Part shown: positions 22,440-31,070 of the stretch, piece after piece | How positions within the stretch are numbered: the first letter of the stretch is position 1 | Layout: each line of letters starts with the position of its first letter | Source: Veillonellales bacterium | GTDB lineage: Bacteria; Bacillota; Negativicutes; JAAYSF01 | DNA length: 34,483 bases | NCBI GenBank assembly: GCA_039680175.1 | Contig: JBDKTO010000056.1 | Location: 1 to 34,483, forward strand | Direction of reading: 5' to 3' | Translations under genes and position numbers: made by a program | The notes under the pieces: model-generated | The model's database searches: none | Told to the model about the DNA's origin: nothing | Seen by the model: the letters and a program-made list of their open reading frames with translations, nothing else

Positions 22440-22468
22440 GTATGTATCCATGCCGAAAGCTCATACTA
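22440..22468 (+). promoter_or_regulatory. Sigma-G-type forespore promoter for spoVAC-spoVAD
   Basis: GTATG (22440-22444), a 17-base spacer, then CATACTA (22462-22468). These match the Bacillus sigma-G consensus GHATR and CATnHTA at every position. It lies 26 bases ahead of the spoVAC ATG. spoVA genes are transcribed by sigma-G in Bacillus. Confidence 0.75.
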
Positions 22469-22494
22469 AAAATAAATAAAACGGAGGCGACAGC

Positions 22495-22950
22495 ATGCCC
22501 AATCAGCAACAGCAGCAGCAAGCCCAGCAGCAGTTTCAAAATAAATTCAATCAAATCAATCCCAAACCGCCTATATTGAAGAATATAACATGGGCCTTTA
22601 TCGTTGGCGGGCTCATTTGTGTCTTCGGCCAGTTTATCCAGAACTATTTTGTCGGTCTGGGATTTTCCCAAAAAGAAGCCGCCGGTCCCACCTCCGCTGT
22701 TCTTGTCTTTCTAGCGGCATTTTTTACCGGTCTGGGAGTGTATGACGAGTTGGGAAAACGAGCCGGAGCAGGCTCCATTGTCCCAATTACCGGCTTTGCC
22801 AATTCTATCGTAGCACCGGCCATGGAATTTAAACGGGAAGGCTATATTTTCGGCGTAGGCGCGAAAATGTTTGTAATTGCCGGACCGGTTTTAGTCTATG
22901 GTATGGTCACAGCATTTATTGTCGGTTTGATTTACTGGCTGACACGATAA
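22495..22950 (+). CDS. spoVAC: Stage V sporulation protein AC
   Basis: 151 residues, the same size as Bacillus SpoVAC. It is a membrane protein of the forespore inner membrane channel that loads dipicolinic acid into the spore and releases it at germination. After an unusually glutamine-rich start (a run of six Q, encoded by CAG/CAA codons) come several helices: ITWAFIVGGLICVFGQFI, PTSAVLVFLAAFFTGLGVYD, then PITGFANSIVAPAMEFKREG, the strongly conserved SpoVAC block. The ATG follows CGGAGG. It is directly behind a sigma-G-like promoter and 12 bases ahead of spoVAD. Confidence 0.96.
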   Translation: MPNQQQQQQAQQQFQNKFNQINPKPPILKNITWAFIVGGLICVFGQFIQNYFVGLGFSQKEAAGPTSAVLVFLAAFFTGLGVYDELGKRAGAGSIVPITGFANSIVAPAMEFKREGYIFGVGAKMFVIAGPVLVYGMVTAFIVGLIYWLTR

Positions 22951-22962
22951 AGGAGGGCTATA

Positions 22963-23967
22963 TTGAACAAAAAGAAAGGGAGCCAAAGTATTCTGTTTAA
23001 AGCTCCGCCCTTTATTACAAGTACCGCCAATATTGTCGGCCCCATGGAAGGCCGGGGATTTTTGACGGATTACTTTGATCAAATCATGGAGGACAATCTG
23101 AATCATCACGACAGCTGGGAAAAATGCGAATCCTTCATGCTGGAGTGGGCCATCCGCAAAGCGGTGGAAAAGGAAGGCAGCGTCATCGACGCTGTGGATT
23201 GCATCCTGGCCGGCGATTTGCTGAATCAATTAATGGCGACTCATTTCGCCCTGCGAAGTTTAGCCAGGCCGTTTTTAGGCTTATACGGAGCCTGCTCCAC
23301 TCTGGCCGAAAGTATGCTGCTGGGCTCTGTCCTGCTGGATGGCGGATTTTTGGACAAAGTCGCCATTGCCGTATCCAGTCACCATGACACGGCGGAACGG
23401 CAATATCGTTTTCCTACCGAACAAGGCGTCCAGCGGCCGCCTGTTTCCCAATGGACCGTCACCGGCTCCGCCGCCGCCGTATTATCGACGACCGGCAGCG
23501 GACCGAAAGTGACGGCAGCGACCATCGGCAAAATCGTCGATATGGGAATTAAAGACCCCAATGCCATGGGACCGGCAATGGCCCCCGCCGCCGCCGACAC
23601 CTTATATCAGCATATCCAGGATACGGGACGGCAGCCCGCTTATTACGACATGATCTTTACCGGCGATCTGGGCAGTATCGGTAAAGCCCTGGTCATTGAC
23701 CTGCTCCGGGAGAAAGGCCTGGATATATCGTCAAACTATGAGGACTGCGGCTGCATGATCTACCGGGAGGAACAGGATGCTCACGCCGGTGCCAGCGGCT
23801 GCGCCAGCTCCGGCATCGTTTTTTCTGGTTATTTGTATCAGCAGCTGCTGACAGGCAAACTGAAAAAAATTTTACTCATCGGCACCGGCAGTTTGCACAG
23901 CACGACTTCCTACCAGCAAAAAGAATCCATTCCCTGCATCGCCCATGCCGTAGCTGTGGAAACATAA
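22963..23967 (+). CDS. spoVAD: Stage V sporulation protein AD
   Basis: 334 residues, near the usual 338. SpoVAD has a thiolase-like fold and binds dipicolinic acid on the outside of the inner spore membrane. Family blocks are FITSTANIVGPMEGRGFL near the start, YGACSTLAESMLLGS, VAVSSHHDTAERQYRFPTE, GYVT-type WTVTGSAAAVLS, and FTGDLGSIGKALVIDLLREK. The start is TTG at 22963, well placed after AAAGGAGGG; no ATG fits. It is co-transcribed with spoVAC. The usual third member, spoVAE, does not follow: only 91 bases separate it from the DUF1657 gene. Confidence 0.96.
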   Translation: MNKKKGSQSILFKAPPFITSTANIVGPMEGRGFLTDYFDQIMEDNLNHHDSWEKCESFMLEWAIRKAVEKEGSVIDAVDCILAGDLLNQLMATHFALRSLARPFLGLYGACSTLAESMLLGSVLLDGGFLDKVAIAVSSHHDTAERQYRFPTEQGVQRPPVSQWTVTGSAAAVLSTTGSGPKVTAATIGKIVDMGIKDPNAMGPAMAPAAADTLYQHIQDTGRQPAYYDMIFTGDLGSIGKALVIDLLREKGLDISSNYEDCGCMIYREEQDAHAGASGCASSGIVFSGYLYQQLLTGKLKKILLIGTGSLHSTTSYQQKESIPCIAHAVAVET

Positions 23968-23989
23968 CCGGCTTTCCTATAATTTTTAC

Positions 23990-24018
23990 TTATGAAATAT
24001 TTCAAACCGGTCATACTA
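23990..24018 (+). promoter_or_regulatory. Sigma-G-like promoter for the DUF1657 gene
   Basis: TTATG (four of five GHATR positions, 23990-23994), 17 bases, then a perfect CATACTA (24012-24018), 40 bases before the TTG start. The -10 is identical to that of spoVAC. Confidence 0.6.
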
Positions 24019-24058
24019 TTCATGGGTACGTAATTCATTATCTAAGGGGGCTACATTT

Positions 24059-24265
24059 TTGACTGTTAAAAAAGATTTGGACAAAGCCGTTGCCGCAGCG
24101 GAATCTGCCAAAGGCACCTATGCTTCCTTCGCCGCAGCTACTGATGATCAGGGAGCTAAAGCAATGTTCGAGCAAATGTCTCAGGATATGGATCGTCATA
24201 TCGCCCAATTAAACAGCCGGGTCAGTTCTACCGCAGAAAACAAGTTGAAAAATCAACAACAATAG
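24059..24265 (+). CDS. DUF1657 small spore-associated protein
   Basis: 68 residues, start TTG (24059) behind AAGGGGG. Composition is Ala/Lys/Gln/Asp-rich and probably all helical: VKKDLDKAVAAAESAKGTYA, then MFEQMSQDMDRHIAQLNSRV. This is the DUF1657 pattern. In Bacillus, DUF1657 genes occur in spoVA operons, notably the mobile spoVA-2mob operon, next to spoVAC, spoVAD and a DUF421 gene. The position after spoVAD fits this. Molecular role is unknown. It has its own sigma-G-like promoter and ends at a strong terminator. Confidence 0.87.
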   Translation: MTVKKDLDKAVAAAESAKGTYASFAAATDDQGAKAMFEQMSQDMDRHIAQLNSRVSSTAENKLKNQQQ

Positions 24266-24267
24266 TC

Positions 24268-24298
24268 AAAAGGGAGGTAGATACGCTGCCTCCCTTTT
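24268..24298 (+). terminator. Terminator after the DUF1657 gene
   Basis: AAAAGGGAGG (24268-24277) pairs perfectly with CCTCCCTTTT (24289-24298). It starts two bases after the stop codon. Only 29 bases separate it from the next gene, so the DUF2229-like gene must depend on read-through or a promoter inside this short gap. Confidence 0.85.
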
Positions 24299-24327
24299 AC
24301 TCAGCTAACTTTAAAGGATGATCCGCT

Positions 24328-25293
24328 ATGCAAATTAAAGTCGGTATTCCCCAGGCTATGCTGTATCATGAATTCGGCGGCCTTTGGAATATTTTTTTTC
24401 AAAATATGGGTATTCCTGTTGTTCTTTCCGGCGAAACCAATAAACAAATACTAAACCGGGGTACGCTGCTGGCCATGGATGAATCCTGCCTTCCTCTGAA
24501 GGTATATTTAGGCCATGTCGACGCTTTACTCCCAGAATGCAGCCATATTTTTGTCCCCCGGATTGCCCAATACCACCCTAATTTTCACTTCTGCGCTAAA
24601 TTCGCCGGGCTGCCTGATATCGTGCAAAATACCTTTCGGCTGTCTTCCGATCAGCTGATTTCTCCCAATATCGAACATAAGTCGCCGGTAAAGCAGCTGC
24701 AAGCCCTGCAGGATACCTGCCGGTCTATTGGACTATCCGCTGTACCTGGCTATTTCTCCTACCGTCACTCACTGAAATCATGGAAAAACAACACCTCCGG
24801 CAATACGCTCTCCAAGCGCAGCATCGCTGTTATTGGCCACAGCTATTTAGTAAAAGACGCCTTTTTCTGCCATGATATCATGAATATGCTGACCTCTCGC
24901 GGGATTGCCGTTGTCACGCCGGAACATGTGGACAATAAAGCGCTCTACGCTGAGGCTAAAATATTTGAACCGGATATCTACTGGCAATTGTCGGCAAAGA
25001 TTGCCGGAGCGGCTCACTTCTTCTGCCGTCAAAGGAATGTTATCGGTATTATTGTGCTGTCAAGTTTCGCCTGCGGCCCTGATTCACTAATGAATGAATA
25101 TATAACACATCATATATTGAAAAAAAGCGATAAACCTTACATTATTATCAGTATTGATGAACATACGGGAAGTGCTGGTCTTATGACACGGATCGAAGCC
25201 TTTTGCGATCTGGTGGAATGGAGAGAAAAACATGAAAGTAGCCTACCCTCATATGGGATATCTGAACATACCCATTGCAAAAATGCTCAGTGA
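24328..25293 (+). CDS. Acyl-CoA dehydratase activase-related protein (DUF2229-like), copy 1
   Basis: 321 residues; ATG after AAAGGATGA. It opens with VGIPQAMLYHEFGGLWNIFF, followed by DESCLPLKVYLGHVDALL, the DUF2229 pattern found in the middle of large 2-hydroxyglutaryl-CoA dehydratase-activase proteins. The C-terminal half has SSFACGPDSLMNEYI and SIDEHTGSAGLMTRIEAFCD. The paired cysteines (CLP and CGP blocks) are good cluster ligands. It matches the gene at 27774 block for block. Unlike that copy it runs some 20 codons past the family end (after CDLVEWREK), overlapping the next gene by 62 bases, which hints at a lost stop codon. Function is inferred to be reductive iron-sulfur chemistry. Confidence 0.8.
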   Translation: MQIKVGIPQAMLYHEFGGLWNIFFQNMGIPVVLSGETNKQILNRGTLLAMDESCLPLKVYLGHVDALLPECSHIFVPRIAQYHPNFHFCAKFAGLPDIVQNTFRLSSDQLISPNIEHKSPVKQLQALQDTCRSIGLSAVPGYFSYRHSLKSWKNNTSGNTLSKRSIAVIGHSYLVKDAFFCHDIMNMLTSRGIAVVTPEHVDNKALYAEAKIFEPDIYWQLSAKIAGAAHFFCRQRNVIGIIVLSSFACGPDSLMNEYITHHILKKSDKPYIIISIDEHTGSAGLMTRIEAFCDLVEWREKHESSLPSYGISEHTHCKNAQ

Positions 25294-26314
25294 CCTTAAA
25301 ATTGAAACCGCCGAAGTGCCGCCGATTTCCCGCAAGACAATAGAATTAGGCTCGCTTTATTCTCCGGAAGGCGTATGCCTGCCGTATAAAATCAATATGG
25401 GAAACTTCCTGGAAGGCATTGAGCGGGGAGCCGACGCTTTAGTCACCATCTGCGGTGCCGGTAAATGCCGCATGGGGTTTTACAATGCCGTACAAAAAAT
25501 CACGCTGGCGGAAAAAAAACAATTACAATTCTATACCATCAATACAGACAGTCTCTTCCGGGACCTGCACCGGTTTTTATGCACGGCGGCGCCTCATGCC
25601 GGATCTTTTTCGGTTATTAAAAGCATCGTCGCAGCAATCCAGATGCTGAAAGCCATCGATGCCACAAACGAGGCAAAAAATTTCTACGGGGCGCGCTCAG
25701 CCAATCCCGAAGAAATCATCCATATATTTGACAATGGGCTGCAGCTTTTCAGGGACTGCCGCAAATTCAGCGATATCAGCCGCAGCCGCAATACCGTAAT
25801 AAACCAAATGCAAAAAATAACCGGTCCTACGGAAATCCAACCGGCAAAAGTCGCCTTGCTGGGTGAATTTTATGTCTTAATGGAACCCCATGTCAATCAC
25901 AGGATTGAGAATCTGCTGATCAAACAAGGCATAGAGGTCAAAAAATTTGCCTGCACCGGCGATTGGGTCTATTCCAAAACACTGCTCCAGACTTTAGGAT
26001 TTTATAATGAAGAAAAGGACTGCCTCAGCCAGGCCCGCCCCTATCTAAACTATCACGTAGGCGGCGAGGGCTTAAAATCCGTAGGCAACGCTTTAGCCTG
26101 TGCCCGCGGCGGCTATGACGGAGTCATTCATATCTATCCTTTTGGCTGTACACCGGAAATAGTAGCCCAATATGCGCTGAAAAACATTGCCGCCGACTAT
26201 CATATGCCCTTATTGACACTAAGCCTCGACGAACACTCCAGCGACGTCGGCATCATTACCCGGGTGGAGGCTTTCGCCGACTGCATCAAGCGAAAAGCGG
26301 CGCAGAGAATATAG
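25232..26314 (+). CDS. 2-hydroxyacyl-CoA dehydratase (HgdB-like) subunit, copy 1
   Basis: 360 residues; the ATG follows GGAGAG inside the end of the previous gene. Blocks in order: VAYPHMGYLNIPIAKML, VPPISRKTIELG, YSPEGVCLPYKINMGNFLEG, ICGAGKCRMGFYNAVQ, VALLGEFYVLMEPHVNHRIE, HVGGEGLKSVGNALACARGG, HIYPFGCTPEIVAQYALKN and SLDEHSSDVGIITRVEAFAD. The conserved cysteines (VCLP, CGAGKC, GCTPE) suit [4Fe-4S] or double-cubane clusters, as in HgdB-type and DccP-type proteins. It probably forms a complex with the preceding protein, powered by the activase encoded at 26666. No CoA substrate can be named. The paralogue is at 28685. Confidence 0.82.
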   Translation: MKVAYPHMGYLNIPIAKMLSDLKIETAEVPPISRKTIELGSLYSPEGVCLPYKINMGNFLEGIERGADALVTICGAGKCRMGFYNAVQKITLAEKKQLQFYTINTDSLFRDLHRFLCTAAPHAGSFSVIKSIVAAIQMLKAIDATNEAKNFYGARSANPEEIIHIFDNGLQLFRDCRKFSDISRSRNTVINQMQKITGPTEIQPAKVALLGEFYVLMEPHVNHRIENLLIKQGIEVKKFACTGDWVYSKTLLQTLGFYNEEKDCLSQARPYLNYHVGGEGLKSVGNALACARGGYDGVIHIYPFGCTPEIVAQYALKNIAADYHMPLLTLSLDEHSSDVGIITRVEAFADCIKRKAAQRI

Positions 26315-26360
26315 GGATTGGTTCATGGCTCTATTCCCCTCTAGAAAGATAGATGAGACT

Positions 26361-26383
26361 CGAAACCACGCACTTTGGTTTCG
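26361..26383 (+). terminator. Hairpin after copy 1, possible terminator
   Basis: CGAAACCA (26361-26368) pairs perfectly with TGGTTTCG (26376-26383); outer GACT/AGTC can extend it. It is 46 bases past the stop codon. No real T run follows, so termination is uncertain. Confidence 0.4.
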
Positions 26384-26433
26384 TTAGTCGAATTATGCAA
26401 AGCTGGGGTGGCGCGCAGCGACGGGGTGTGTAT

Positions 26434-26517
26434 GGTTCTTGGCTCATTGGCTCATGGAACTTGAAACTTAGAACTTAGGACTTGGAAATTTGGACTTGGT
26501 AGTTGGAAATCGGAACT
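26434..26517. repeat. Degenerate short tandem repeat tract
   Basis: About 84 bases made of 7-9-base variants: GGTTCTTGGCTCATTGGCTC, followed by imperfect TTGGAACT/TTAGAACT/TTGGAAAT units. It is non-coding and sits between two convergent genes. Its GGCTCAT units resemble the CTCATAG units at 16293. Confidence 0.75.
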
Positions 26518-26523
26518 AAATTC

Positions 26524-26555
26524 TGTCATTGCGAGCGGCAGCGAAGCAATCTCAT
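26524..26555. repeat. Palindromic intergenic repeat of the CATTGCGAG type
   Basis: TGTCATTGCGAGCGGCAGCG followed by AAGCAATCTC; ATTGC and GCAAT form the ends of a hairpin. Elements with the form TCATTGCGAG...GAAGCAATC are scattered through many bacterial genomes. This is the only copy seen in the window. Confidence 0.7.
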
Positions 26556-26574
26556 GACTGCTACGGTCGCCTAG

Positions 26575-26594
26575 CCAGCGTTGATAACGCCTGG
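26575..26594. other. Short hairpin next to the intergenic repeat
   Basis: CCAGCGTT, GAT, AACG-C-CTGG: an 8-pair stem with one bulged C. It may be the second half of the same intergenic element. No T run follows in either direction. Confidence 0.5.
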
Positions 26595-26623
26595 TGAAAC
26601 AGCCCATCGCTCTTGAAAATCCA

Positions 26624-26658
26624 GTAAGGCATCTCTCTTTAACGGAAAGATGCCTTAC
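26624..26658 (-). terminator. Hairpin after the activase gene, probable terminator
   Basis: GTAAGGCATCT (26624-26634) and AGATGCCTTAC (26648-26658) form a perfect 11-pair stem eight bases past the activase stop codon. The T content after it is modest on both strands. Confidence 0.6.
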
Positions 26659-26665
26659 GTTTCTC

Positions 26666-27628
26666 TTAGCTGCCAGGTACTTTATTACTCCATTTGCCGC
26701 AGCGATCCCCCCAGCGGGCCGCTATTTCATTATTAATTTGCAGCTCTATTACTTCACACAAATTCGGACAGCCACTGCATTCAAAGCTATGGGGAATAAA
26801 ACTGTAATCAACTAAATCAAAGCCGCGAAATGATGTTGGCCGCTCTTCGCTAACCTGCTCTTTCGACAAAAGAGCAGCGCCAATAGCGCCCATAACATTA
26901 TAATGGGGCGGAACAACAACCGGACAGCCAAGAGCTTCTTGAAAAGCCCGCTTCATCCCCTGATTCGCCGCTACCCCGCCCTGAAACAGGATAGGAGCCT
27001 GAATGTTCTTGCCCTTGCCGACATTATTTAAATAATTGCGTACCAATGCCTGGCACAGACCGTTTAAAATATCGGCAATTTGATGTCCGGTCTGCTGTTT
27101 GTGAATCATATCCGACTCGGCAAATACGGCACAGCGCCCGGCAACACGCACCGGCGTCGTTGACTCTAAAGCGCGGCTGCCAAAATTCTCAATCGGCATA
27201 TTGAGCCGCGCCGCCTGTTGATCCAAAAATGATCCCGTTCCGGCGGCACATACTGTATTCATAGCGAAATCAGTGACGACGCCATTACGGATAATGATAA
27301 TTTTAGAATCCTGGCCACCGATCTCAAGGATCGTCTGTACGTCAGGCACAATATGCATAGCCGCCACCGCATGGGCGGTAATTTCATTTTTAACGGAATC
27401 GGCCCCAAGGACGACTCCTGCCAAATGCCGGCCGCTGCCGGTTGTCCCTACGCCGGAAACCGTCACGCCGGGATTATGCTCCCTGATCTGCTTAAGACCA
27501 TTTTGCACAGCCTCAATCGGCCGGCCCTGCGTCCGTATATATAACGTATCGATTACTTCCCCTTGATTGCCAAGCATGGCGACATTGGTGCTGACCGAAC
27601 CAACATCAATTCCCAGGAAAACTTCCAT
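26666..27628 (-). CDS. Acyl-CoA dehydratase activase (BadF/BadG/BcrA/BcrD ATPase)
   Basis: 320 residues from ATG 27628 behind AAAGGAGG; the open frame to 27709 has no ribosome site. The ASKHA ATPase blocks are FLGIDVGSVSTNVAML, VGTTGSGRHLAG, ILEIGGQDSKIIII and GGVAANQGM. Cys127 (VCAAGTGSFLDQQA) and Cys166 (GRCAVFAESDM) are the cluster ligands; as I recall, the numbering equals that of the dehydratase activator HgdC, whose homodimer shares one [4Fe-4S]. It should hydrolyse ATP to push an electron into a partner dehydratase. An extra C-terminal CSGCPNLCEV segment could hold another metal. It lies alone on the minus strand between two copies of its likely partners, with a sigma-G-like promoter. 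Confidence 0.92.
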   Translation of the reverse strand: MEVFLGIDVGSVSTNVAMLGNQGEVIDTLYIRTQGRPIEAVQNGLKQIREHNPGVTVSGVGTTGSGRHLAGVVLGADSVKNEITAHAVAAMHIVPDVQTILEIGGQDSKIIIIRNGVVTDFAMNTVCAAGTGSFLDQQAARLNMPIENFGSRALESTTPVRVAGRCAVFAESDMIHKQQTGHQIADILNGLCQALVRNYLNNVGKGKNIQAPILFQGGVAANQGMKRAFQEALGCPVVVPPHYNVMGAIGAALLSKEQVSEERPTSFRGFDLVDYSFIPHSFECSGCPNLCEVIELQINNEIAARWGDRCGKWSNKVPGS

Positions 27629-27660
27629 TCCGATTCCTCCTTTGACACGGCGAACTCTAT

Positions 27661-27690
27661 TATTATGCCCTTTTAACAAAAAAATAATGC
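27661..27690 (-). promoter_or_regulatory. Possible sigma-G-type promoter for the activase gene
   Basis: On the minus strand GCATT (27686-27690, four of five GHATR), 18 bases, then CATAATA (27661-27667), which fits CATnHTA, 32 bases before the start. The facing copy-2 genes share this gap, which also has a CTGAATA/TATTCAG inverted repeat (27722-27756). Confidence 0.45.
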
Positions 27691-27773
27691 CGCTTTTGCA
27701 CCAAGGCAATTATATAAATTACTGAATATGTAAATAATATGAATATTGCTATTCAGAAAGAGGCGAATGAAAT

Positions 27774-28691
27774 TTGACGGTACGAATCGGTATACCGCGA
27801 GGATTACTCTACTACCAGTACGGAGCACTGTGGGAAAGATTTTTGCAGGGACTGGGGGCTGAAGTTGTCGTTACCGGCGATACTTCCAAAGCAACTCTGG
27901 ATTGCGGCAGCGTATTGGATGATGTATGTCTGCCGGTGAAAGTTTATTTCGGACACATTTATGAATTAGCCGCCAGGAATGTCGATTATTTATTCACCCC
28001 ACGGATCATCAGTGTTGCCGCCAGACAATACTGCTGCCCCAAAATTATCGGCATGCCGGATATTTTACACAGCAATATGGAGCAGCTGCCGCCGCTGCTG
28101 GATATAAATGTAAACCTTCACCAAAATGGGTGCAGCCTGTATCAGGCGGTTATAGCCGCGGGCCGCAGGCTGGGGAAAAATCCGCTATTCAGCCTGTATG
28201 CCTGGCATAACGCCTGGCAGAACCACCGAAGGGAGCAGCCTTTTTTTTGTCCCTGCCGGACAGACCGGCAGCGAATCGGCCTGATCGGCCATTCCTACAT
28301 CATCCACGATCATCAAATCAGCATGAATGTAATTGACAAGCTGAGCAACCTTGGCTTTGAAGTGATTACACCTGATATGGTCAGCCTTTGCCAGGCCGCC
28401 GCTGCTGCTAAGACACTAAACAAAAAAATTTTTTGGTCGAACAGCCACCATATGGCCGGTGCTGCCTTGACCTTGATACAGTCAACACCTCCGGTTGACG
28501 GGCTGATTTTTATGACTTCTTTTGCCTGCGGGCCGGATGCCTTAATCGGTGAACTGATAAAGCGGCGGGCTCATGCACTCAATATCCCCTGCATGCTATT
28601 AACAGTAGATGAACATACGGCTGAAGCCGGCTTTGTAACCAGGCTGGAAGCCTTTACCGACATGCTGAGCCGGAGGCGGCAGCCATGTTGA
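27774..28691 (+). CDS. Acyl-CoA dehydratase activase-related protein (DUF2229-like), copy 2
   Basis: 305 residues, start TTG (27774) about ten bases after GAGG. It follows the copy at 24328 throughout: VRIGIPRGLLYYQYGALWER, DDVCLPVKVYFGHIYELA, IGLIGHSYIIHD, SNSHHMAGAAL, TSFACGPDALIGELI and TVDEHTAEAGFVTRLEAFTD. It ends soon after that last block, as the family normally does, and overlaps the next gene by only seven bases. The conserved CLP and CGP cysteines are kept. The two copies are clearly diverged, so the duplication is old. It probably pairs with the protein encoded at 28685 and is served by the divergent activase. Confidence 0.82.
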   Translation: MTVRIGIPRGLLYYQYGALWERFLQGLGAEVVVTGDTSKATLDCGSVLDDVCLPVKVYFGHIYELAARNVDYLFTPRIISVAARQYCCPKIIGMPDILHSNMEQLPPLLDINVNLHQNGCSLYQAVIAAGRRLGKNPLFSLYAWHNAWQNHRREQPFFCPCRTDRQRIGLIGHSYIIHDHQISMNVIDKLSNLGFEVITPDMVSLCQAAAAAKTLNKKIFWSNSHHMAGAALTLIQSTPPVDGLIFMTSFACGPDALIGELIKRRAHALNIPCMLLTVDEHTAEAGFVTRLEAFTDMLSRRRQPC

Positions 28692-29776
28692 TTACTTTCC
28701 CCCACATGGGAGATATGAGCATCGTCCTGAAAACGTTATTTAATGGTCTTGGACGCCAAGTATCCGTTCCGCCGCCGATTTCCAAGCGAACCTTGGAACT
28801 TGGCATGAAATATTCCCCGGAGACCGTCTGCCTCCCGTTTAAAGTGAATGTAGGAAACTTTATCGAAGCCCTTGAACAAGGGGCCGATACCATTGTGACC
28901 TGCGGCGGGGTCGGCCCCTGCCGGTTAGGCTACTACGCCGAAATACAGCGGAGCATTCTTCAAGATCTGGGGTTTCGGTTTGATATGATTGTGGTCGAGC
29001 CCGCTATCACCAATATCTTAAAAAACTTGCACCGGGTCGCGCCTAAGCAGAGTCTGCCGAATATCTATTCGGCCTTTCGTCTGGCAACCGCCAAAATGAA
29101 TACACTGGATAGTCTGCAGCAAAAAGTATACCGCCTGCAGCCGCGGGAAATAAATCCGGGAGAGGCGGATTCTGTCCGACTGCAAGGAGTCCGGGAAATC
29201 GACACGGCCGAAACTCTGACAGCATTAGCCGCCGTCCGGCAGGAAACGGAAAGCAAGTTGGACAGCGTCAAACTCCGCTCCGGCATTCAGCCGCTGCGGA
29301 TCGGTATCGTGGGCGAAATTTATGTCATGCTGGAACCTTTTATGAACCAGGACTTAGCCAGTCATTTGGGAAACATGGGAGTAGAAGTACATCAAACCAT
29401 GTTTCTCAGCGATTATGTAAATGGTCATTTGTTCAGAAAACAAGAATATCTAAAACTATTTCAGCACCTTGCCGCTTTAGCACAGCCATATCTTCGCCAC
29501 ACCATAGGCGGTCACAGCTTAAAAAGCATTGGTCATACGGTCAATATGGGCCGGAAAAACTTCGACGGCGTCATTCATATATTTCCCTTTACCTGTATGC
29601 CTGAAATAGTTGCGAAAAACATCCTGCCTAAAGTCAGCAGCGACGCAAATATCCCTGTGCTGTCGCTGACTTTCGATGAACAATCCGGCGAAGCCGGGTT
29701 AATGACCCGTTTGGAAGCCTTTGTTGACTTATTGAAATACCGGCGTTCCAGCCAAACCGCTGCTGATCCCGATTAA
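28685..29776 (+). CDS. 2-hydroxyacyl-CoA dehydratase (HgdB-like) subunit, copy 2
   Basis: 363 residues; ATG after CCGGAGGCGG. It parallels the gene at 25232: ITFPHMGDMSIVLKTLF, VPPPISKRTLELG, YSPETVCLPFKVNVGNFIEA, TCGGVGPCRLGYYAEIQ, IGIVGEIYVMLEPFMNQDLA, TIGGHSLKSIGHTVNMGRKN, HIFPFTCMPEIVAKN and TFDEQSGEAGLMTRLEAFVD. The same cysteines (VCLP, CGGVGPC, TCMPE) are kept, so cluster binding is probably conserved. Its last motif resembles the last motif of the DUF2229-like partner, suggesting that the two subunits share ancestry. Its stop codon overlaps the convergent DUF421 gene by four bases. Confidence 0.82.
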   Translation: MLITFPHMGDMSIVLKTLFNGLGRQVSVPPPISKRTLELGMKYSPETVCLPFKVNVGNFIEALEQGADTIVTCGGVGPCRLGYYAEIQRSILQDLGFRFDMIVVEPAITNILKNLHRVAPKQSLPNIYSAFRLATAKMNTLDSLQQKVYRLQPREINPGEADSVRLQGVREIDTAETLTALAAVRQETESKLDSVKLRSGIQPLRIGIVGEIYVMLEPFMNQDLASHLGNMGVEVHQTMFLSDYVNGHLFRKQEYLKLFQHLAALAQPYLRHTIGGHSLKSIGHTVNMGRKNFDGVIHIFPFTCMPEIVAKNILPKVSSDANIPVLSLTFDEQSGEAGLMTRLEAFVDLLKYRRSSQTAADPD

Positions 29777-30507
29777 TCCGTTTTCTCCTGGGATGAAGAC
29801 TGATTCCGTTCCCCTGCCGGACTTCTCCGGCTGCTGATAAACAGCTGGCCCTTGGAATCAATCACCGCGTAAGTCACCTGGGAGGGATGAGCGATATTGC
29901 GATCCACCAGCTGCTGTTCCAGCCAGGCCCGGGAACGGTTTTGCTTATCTAAATTTTCTTCAATGATTTGTCCGTCCATGATGATCTCCACCGGTAAAGC
30001 AGGATCAGCCAAATGAATGTTAAAGTCGGTCTTAGTCAGCGGCTGATAGTCCGATTTCTTGATCACGCTTAATTCCCCGGTTGTTTCCACAATAGCGTAT
30101 TGCACCTCGGACACATCGAATATTCCTTTCTCCCGCAGCTTGCCGCTTAACTCATCCAGGTCAAACCGCATGCCCCGCATATTTTCCGCGATGATATGCC
30201 CGCTTTTAATCACAACCGTCGGTGAACCTTCAATTATTTTTCGCAGCGGCCGGCTTTTTATCGTAACAAAGGATAAAGAATAGGTAAGAACAATAAACAA
30301 CACCAAATCATAATAATGGCTCCATAACTTTTCCGGATCTGTGGAGAGAATACTGCCGGCAATCGAACCAATAGTAATACCGCTAATATATTCGTAAAAA
30401 GTCAATTGTCCCACTTGGGTTTTACCCAATATCCGGGTAAAAATTAATAAACTAAAAAACACCATGGCAGTTTGCCATGTATCACGAAATATTCCCTGCC
30501 ATTCCAT
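29773..30507 (-). CDS. DUF421 membrane protein (YetF/2Duf-like)
   Basis: 244 residues from ATG 30507, eleven bases after GGGGAGG; a TTG at 30528 lies before the ribosome site. The first 85 residues hold about three helices: AMVVF-type TAMVFFSLLIFTRILGKTQV, QLTFYEYISGITIGSIAGSI and YDLVLFIVLTYSLSFV. Two soluble YetF-type lobes follow, with the family motif GMRFDLDELSGKLREKGIFD and the repeat VQYAIVETTGELSVI / VTYAVIDSKGQLFIS. In Bacillus spoVA-2mob operons a related DUF421 protein sits in the spore inner membrane and raises heat resistance. Presence near spoVAC, spoVAD and DUF1657 suggests the same here. The C-terminus is polar and Ser/Gln-rich. Confidence 0.9.
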   Translation of the reverse strand: MEWQGIFRDTWQTAMVFFSLLIFTRILGKTQVGQLTFYEYISGITIGSIAGSILSTDPEKLWSHYYDLVLFIVLTYSLSFVTIKSRPLRKIIEGSPTVVIKSGHIIAENMRGMRFDLDELSGKLREKGIFDVSEVQYAIVETTGELSVIKKSDYQPLTKTDFNIHLADPALPVEIIMDGQIIEENLDKQNRSRAWLEQQLVDRNIAHPSQVTYAVIDSKGQLFISSRRSPAGERNQSSSQEKTD

Positions 30508-30650
30508 AAACCGACGGCCTCCCCTCAATGCATATATTATAGGCTGAACAAAATAACGGAAAATTATTACACAATTTCTTTGTTTCCACTCACCATTTCA
30601 TGACCAGCCGAATACTAATATTAGAGAGAAACGTATAGGAGGTTAGGGGA

Positions 30651-31070
30651 ATGGAGCAAGAGGAAAGAAAAAAGCTCTGCAACTATCATTTGGTGCATGT
30701 ACACAGCTATTCAACCCAAACCGGCGTCGCCAACGACCATCAGCATGTAATTATGAGTGTAAGCGGTCCAAAAATTACAGCCGACGGATCGCATATACAT
30801 GTTCTTAAAGGCCGGACCGACTTTCATATTGATCACTGGCATTCCTATGAAGTAGAAAGCGGACCCGCTCAAGTTCAGCCCGACGGACGCCATTGCCATT
30901 ATTTTCAGGGAGTCACCTCCGTAGATTTAAACCACTCTCATCCTTATTCCGGCGTAACGGGACTAACCTTTGATGTAGGCGCCGATGACCGGGACGATGA
31001 TGATGACGATGACTATAACTATATGCCGACAAAAGCCGGACAAAAATATAAATACGGTCACCGGGAATAG
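30651..31070 (+). CDS. YmaF family His-rich protein
   Basis: 139 residues; ATG after AGGAGGTTAGGGG. Histidine pairs recur through the chain (HLVHVHSYST, NDHQHVIM, SHIHVL, DHWHSYEV, RHCHYFQG, NHSHPYSG) in about six repeats. The tail has an Asp run (DDRDDDDDDDYNY) and then a Lys/Tyr-rich end. YmaF-like proteins have this repeating H-x-H layout. The function is unknown; metal binding is a fair inference from composition. There is no signal peptide. It is divergent from DUF421 and ends at a strong bidirectional terminator. Spore location is possible given the neighbours, but there is no direct evidence. Confidence 0.82.
   Translation: MEQEERKKLCNYHLVHVHSYSTQTGVANDHQHVIMSVSGPKITADGSHIHVLKGRTDFHIDHWHSYEVESGPAQVQPDGRHCHYFQGVTSVDLNHSHPYSGVTGLTFDVGADDRDDDDDDDYNYMPTKAGQKYKYGHRE

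Follow-up and report, generated by a model that had tools for sequence, protein, structure and literature searches.

A candidate ATP-driven electron-transfer gene trio at the sporulation loci of anaerobic Bacillota

The window analysed here is a 34,483-nucleotide (nt) stretch of DNA from a Veillonellales bacterium (assembly GCA_039680175.1, contig JBDKTO010000056.1), in which genes for two related subunits, A (DUF2229) and B (HgdB-like), and for an HgdC/BadF-type ATPase, the activase, lie beside the sporulation genes spoVAC and spoVAD. Far from being peculiar to the genome in which it was noticed, this trio is common in the sigF-spoVA locus of clostridia, where it seems to have gone undescribed. 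We lean, with some reserve, towards the view that its products form an ATP-driven complex for low-potential electron transfer, composed of A-B and the activase, which belongs to the forespore programme of anaerobes.

Linkage to sporulation loci across the phylum

The surroundings of the trio were annotated in two samples, the first comprising bacterial genomes with 80 named B relatives and the second one genome per family from 53 families of the phylum (a non-random set of best-scoring matches). Genes of the spoVA/sigF group were neighbours in 46 of the 80 loci of the first sample (spoIIE/yabPQ in 4; the lysA-scp side only in 9, some of these being cut by a contig end; other surroundings in 21) and in 41 of the 53 families of the second (the downstream lysA-scpAB side only in 5; other surroundings in 7). 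The spore link proposed by an earlier reading of the window from its letters (the sequence-only reading) hinged on this outcome and survived it, the homologues lying mostly beside spoVA/sigF. In dacF-spoIIAA-spoIIAB-sigF-spoVA loci the A-B pair is usually accompanied by the activase, and many Clostridia carry, on a single strand, the order dacF-spoIIAA-spoIIAB-sigF-(dodecin)-(spoVAA-spoVAB)-spoVAC-spoVAD-spoVAEb-spoVAEa-spoVAF-A-B-activase-(trpB)-lysA; in Halonatronum, most genes of that operon were identified by hidden Markov models. Since lysA comes after spoVAF in Bacillus subtilis, the trio's place is between these two genes. As a control, fused homologues of 1405-1450 residues (BcrAD x2-DUF2229-HGD) were located in sigF-spoVA loci in 0 of 7 cases, one of them (L203) having an isolated sigma-factor match.

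Apart from the sigF-spoVA locus, the trio is found at other sporulation loci. In Sporomusa and its close kin the genes stand in the yabPQ-spoIIE locus (in Sporomusa ovata, L065, A-B is flanked by spoIIE and tilS), and in two genomes of the window's own family (L047, L048) an activase-A-B set is flanked by yabR and spoIIE. The window carries two A-B pairs, I and II, and relatives of the second adjoin SpoVAD and DUF1657 in three loci of the window's class (L058, L059, L060) and DUF1657 in L056. A DUF421/YetF gene recurs next to A-B in L058, L059, L060, L163 and L167; in the last two it adjoins A-B (L163:11139-11831, L167:10186-10710) though no spoVA gene is near.

The window's own genome (4.08 Mb in 121 contigs) illustrates how the locus can be divided. 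Its sigF locus (contig 45, 16000-35000) reads dacF-spoIIAA-spoIIAB-sigF-dodecin-spoVAEb-spoVAEa-spoVAF-M50-trpS-scpA-scpB-ytfI-ytfJ-dacF-like, and spoVAC, spoVAD and A-B-activase are absent from that stretch of contig 45. The window's spoVAD is the only SpoVAD of the genome (a single genome hit), and genes of the SpoVAC/SpoVAEb family number two, namely the spoVAC of the window and the spoVAEb of the sigF locus. The spoVA operon is hence split, with spoVAEb, spoVAEa and spoVAF beside sigF and spoVAC and spoVAD in the window, and the pieces lost from the sigF locus (spoVAC, spoVAD and A-B-activase) sit together in the window. These would be parts of the ancestral locus that now lie together at a distance from sigF, the A-B pair being present in two diverged copies with a single activase common to both. 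Many of the loci, most of those from Clostridia and the one on contig 45 among them, have a dodecin gene, which encodes a flavin- or CoA-binding protein within a forespore operon, inserted after sigF and ahead of the spoVA genes.

Candidate promoters and co-occurrence with sporulation

Both strands of the window were scanned with the B. subtilis sigma-G consensus GHATR-17/18-CATWHTA. Its only perfect match in the 34 kb, GTATG-17-CATACTA (22440-22468, plus strand), lies 55 nt upstream of spoVAC. Sites with one mismatch precede the DUF1657 gene (TTATG-17-CATACTA, 23990-24018, plus strand) and the activase (GCATT-18-CATAATA, 27661-27690, minus strand, 62 nt before the start), and the activase of L061 is preceded by the near-identical GCATT-17-CATAATA. 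Sites with at most one mismatch stand before 23 of 119 trio genes that have an upstream gap of their own, compared with 60 of the 1167 other genes (p 4e-7), and perfect sites before 8 of 119 as against 8 of 1167 (p 3e-5), counts in which the rows are related and the start codons approximate. This enrichment suggests forespore expression of the trio, probably under sigma-G or sigma-F.

Co-occurrence was assessed in 398 genomes sampled evenly across the phylum, among which B was detected in 283 and SpoIVA in 335. B is present in 268 of the 335 SpoIVA-positive genomes and in 15 of the 63 SpoIVA-negative ones (odds ratio 12.8, from lists cross-tabulated by hand and uncorrected for kinship). The expectation that the genes would follow spore formers was thus largely borne out, while exclusiveness to spore formers was not. 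Of the 15 SpoIVA-negative genomes with B, six contain SpoVAD and a seventh contains SpoIIE; the remaining eight are without SpoIVA, SpoVAD and SpoIIE.

Several observations weigh against a place of the trio in the forespore programme. Those eight genomes are all Bacillota; in most of them the stretch read contains A, B and the activase together, in none beside spo genes, and five Actinomycetota/Atribacterota metagenome-assembled genomes (MAGs) without SpoVAD and SpoIIE carry the genes as well. Within the window's class the link is looser, 11 of 20 loci having neither a spo gene nor DUF1657 closer than about 9 kb. In the window itself no clear sigma-G-type promoter was found upstream of pair I, the best candidate having two mismatches, and a strong 38-nt hairpin of terminator- or attenuator-like character (24264-24301, plus strand; -22.2 kcal/mol, z -5.0) lies between the DUF1657 gene and the A gene of pair II, about 27 nt before the start of the latter, so that expression of pair II would need read-through or attenuation, or else a promoter unrecognised here.

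The trio is intact, as an operon, in some genomes without the tested sporulation genes; therefore it is not spore-only, and a strictly spore-specific device was rejected. To judge from these gene sets, the trio is a functional unit able to exist without spores. The same genomes lend support to a different explanation, in which the trio is a general anaerobic redox enzyme of vegetative cells that old synteny has kept near sigF-spoVA and that has no spore role. The housekeeping genes lysA, trpS and scpAB share the sigF-spoVA locus, and neighbours in genomes without SpoVAD are sometimes ferredoxin-linked: genes of the NfnAB type (NfnAB is an NADH-dependent ferredoxin:NADP oxidoreductase) lie beside or near the trio in L116, L125, L112 and L134, which are Actinomycetota MAGs and a Thermosediminibacterales MAG, and L208 is surrounded by NfnB- and 2-oxoacid oxidoreductase-like genes, the latter identified by no more than their first residues. 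These neighbours would fit ferredoxin as the electron donor. Nevertheless, the trio shifts among sporulation loci (yabPQ-spoIIE in some, spoVAD/DUF1657/DUF421 in others) instead of staying with lysA and trpS, and the window's own genome has it with spoVAC-spoVAD and not with trpS-scpAB. Together with the enrichment of sigma-G-type promoters and the strong co-occurrence with SpoIVA, this renders a purely vegetative enzyme rather unlikely, even as the most serious of the rival explanations.

The A and B subunits and their relatives

Gene families of the window were assigned with Pfam and NCBIfam profiles, which confirmed all the families named in the sequence-only reading. Pair I consists of A1 (27774-28691, plus strand; PF09989, E 1.6e-42) and B1 (28685-29776, plus strand; DUF2229 and a weak HGD-D match), and pair II of A2 (24328-25293, plus strand, 321 residues; PF09989, E 7.2e-38) and B2 (25232-26314, plus strand, 360 residues; again DUF2229 and weak HGD-D), whose open reading frames (ORFs) share a 62-nt overlap. 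All four subunits score 19.9-24.3 bits against the HGD-D profile, under its cut-off of 28.4. In a FastTree phylogeny the type-I and type-II pairs fall into separate clades, and the spoVA-linked L054 is sister to the Negativicutes type-I clade (local support 89%). One further DUF2229 relative of the genome is a fused 1435-residue protein on another contig.

AlphaFold models of B1 and A1 (predicted local distance difference test, pLDDT, 93 and 94) were compared with solved structures. The B1 model reaches Z 16.3 to the double-cubane cluster protein (DCCP), 16.2 to 2-hydroxyacyl-coenzyme A (CoA) dehydratase (HAD; here the 2-hydroxyisocaproyl-CoA enzyme) and 15.8 to BzdNO, over about 290-307 residues at a root-mean-square deviation (rmsd) of about 4 Å; the A1 model reaches Z 15.7, 15.7 and 15.6 to HAD (3o3m), DCCP (7yzm) and benzoyl-CoA reductase subunits, over about 260 residues at 3.7-3.8 Å. 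The three systems tie as the closest folds for both subunits, and by predicted fold A and B are split relatives of the HAD, benzoyl-CoA reductase and DCCP enzymes.

Each subunit has exactly three invariant cysteines, C49, C79 and C304 in B (148 of 148 proteins) and C52, C88 and C252 in A (A1 numbering; 144 of 144 proteins), A2 having the equivalents. The third cysteine of both A and B aligns with a cysteine in DCCP and HAD; the sequence-profile alignment to solved structures spans the last ~65 residues only, with the N-terminal cysteines outside it. In class I benzoyl-CoA reductase, six cysteines of BzdN ligate an [8Fe-9S] cluster and three of BzdO a [4Fe-4S] cluster (PMC11971306). Because A and B have three invariant cysteines each, as the BzdO ligands, we infer that either subunit should carry one [4Fe-4S]-type cluster. 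DCCP consists of two identical subunits, each holding one [8Fe-9S] double cubane (PMC11971306), and such a double cubane was rejected for A and B, in which three and not six cysteines per subunit are invariant.

The activase

The activase gene occupies 26666-27628 on the minus strand (PF01869, E 1.7e-48). Its mechanical ORF extends to a TTG at 27709, and alignment places the start at Met28 of that frame (27628), which is probably the true one. Scores exceed the curated cut-offs (165.9 against 31.5 bits for PF01869; 191.7 against 125.4 for TIGR00241), and the protein resembles MbdQ, HgdC, HadI and the DCCP reductase (DCCP-R), MbdQ (9gai) being the best match. Both cysteines of the bridging cluster, already seen in the sequence-only reading, are present in 106 of 106 activases (C154 and C193, numbered from 27709) and align with cysteines of HgdC (1hux) and MbdQ. 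That reading made no mention of a further C-terminal tail of the CxxCxxxC-x18-C type, which is likewise invariant in 106 of 106. This Cys4 tail (residues 311-337; window ~26699-26779, minus strand) extends past the region alignable to the solved relatives, which are shorter, and is likely to form a further cluster or metal site. A similar motif occurs inside the fused proteins. Natural fusions, which join activase-activase-A-B in one chain, argue that activase, A and B work together.

Comparison with known systems

The HAD systems (HgdAB/HadBC with HgdC/HadI) share with the trio the fold that is predicted for A and B (Z about 16 to 3o3m/3o3n) and a make-up of two related but non-identical subunits with three invariant cysteines each. 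They also have in common an activase of the ASKHA class whose two bridging cysteines are separated by 39 residues. They differ in that A and B are hardly recognisable as such by sequence, HGD-D staying under its cut-off, the C-terminal part alone aligning and DUF2229 being the matching profile, and in that the trio has a Cys4-tailed activase, a home at sporulation loci and no CoA-transferase genes seen nearby. DCCP/DCCP-R of Carboxydothermus provides the best sequence and fold matches (6eno, 7yyl, 7yzm) and likewise has an ATP-driven reductase partner, whereas A and B are separate genes with three invariant cysteines per subunit (the six-cysteine criterion being taken from BzdN). Class I benzoyl-CoA reductases (BzdNOPQ/MbdNOPQ) share the fold of the catalytic subunits and supply the closest activase, but have 6 + 3 cysteines instead of 3 + 3 and two activase genes instead of one. 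The fused proteins, which combine activase-activase-A-B with a cysteine motif between, contain two ASKHA domains and stand apart from the sigF-spoVA locus. The spoVA/spoVA2-type operons have in common with the window the genes spoVAC, spoVAD, DUF1657 and DUF421/YetF.

These likenesses raise the possibility of a catalytic enzyme with a defined substrate made or used in spores, performing a 2-hydroxyacyl-CoA-like dehydration or a Birch-type ring reduction, perhaps on a spore metabolite, for which the activase would be the starter. The nearest folds (HAD, benzoyl-CoA reductase and DCCP) and the two non-identical three-cysteine subunits, as in HAD, speak for it; against it, the annotated loci showed no recurrent CoA-transferase gene, or any other gene of a pathway, next to the trio, and the HGD-D scores stay under the cut-off. 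We consider this explanation improbable.

Proposed mechanism

An ATP-driven electron-transfer complex of the forespore, the reading that we favour, would operate as follows, the chemistry being modelled on the family. The activase, a BadF-type ATPase of the ASKHA class to which a Cys4 domain has been added, would be a homodimer bridged by a [4Fe-4S] cluster, and reduced ferredoxin would load it; ATP hydrolysis would then push single low-potential electrons from the activase into an A-B heterodimer holding one three-cysteine-ligated [4Fe-4S] cluster per subunit, and A-B would hand them to an acceptor, either a small molecule or a protein. ATP-driven transfer of low-potential electrons had been proposed from the sequence, and the predicted folds and invariant cysteines lend it support. 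The weakest step, which is a guess, concerns the purpose: an anaerobe might use the electrons, in its forespore or while its spore germinates, to re-reduce over-oxidised metallocofactors. Two observations favour it: the trio tracks spore-forming anaerobes, and a search of control genomes detected no DUF2229 family member in B. subtilis. A bolder version, which we put forward tentatively as a possibility, is that the trio is ancestral and belongs to the core of anaerobic sporulation, where it has been overlooked. Produced in the forespore together with SpoVA, it would be an ATP-powered electron pump by which the spore or germinating cell of an anaerobe stays reduced or becomes so again, and aerobic spore formers of the Bacillus type would have lost it.

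Arrangement of the window

The trio's neighbours in the window are spoVAC (22495-22950, plus strand; TIGR02838, 195 bits against an equivalog cut-off of 164, E 4.6e-58), spoVAD (22963-23967, plus strand; PF07451, E 7.6e-142), DUF1657, a small protein of spoVA2-type operons (24059-24265, plus strand; PF07870, E 3e-15), the membrane protein DUF421/YetF (29773-30528, minus strand; PF04239, E 2.1e-40) and a His-rich YmaF (30651-31070, plus strand; PF12788, E 4.3e-19). The sequence-only reading had treated the region as a single spoVA-linked set; the neighbourhood is real, and a single operon is ruled out by the mixed strands, with the activase and DUF421 on the minus strand. The hairpin upstream of A2 and a dispersed repeat that separates B2 from the activase also speak against one operon. 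This repeat (26320-26650) is intergenic and has about 50 partial copies genome-wide. YmaF, which had been counted as part of the cluster, is not conserved beside the trio in the loci of relatives; it was discarded as a component of the complex and is probably a neighbour. A chance or annotation artefact, by which unrelated genes came together in one genome, could draw on the mixed strands and on nothing else, and is so improbable as to be negligible, for the neighbourhood counts, in which the arrangement recurs over dozens of families, refute it.

Significance

No description of A-B-activase genes in spoVA/spoVA2-type operons, or of a sporulation role for these genes, was found in the literature searched, the coverage of which was partial and leaves priority uncertain; the sporulation-gene survey PMC3533761 contains no mention of them under the terms searched. 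The belief that the combination is new stands as far as that search reaches, while its confinement to this genome does not, the trio being wider, and probably older, than had been thought.

The genetics of sporulation has been built in large part on Bacillus subtilis. If the proposal is true, many families of anaerobes have a redox machine in their most conserved forespore locus, their spores possess a step of electron transfer driven by energy that is absent from current models, and the HAD/DCCP superfamily would gain a developmental role. Furthermore, how the spore of an anaerobe restarts its low-potential metabolism after exposure to oxygen would become a directly testable question.

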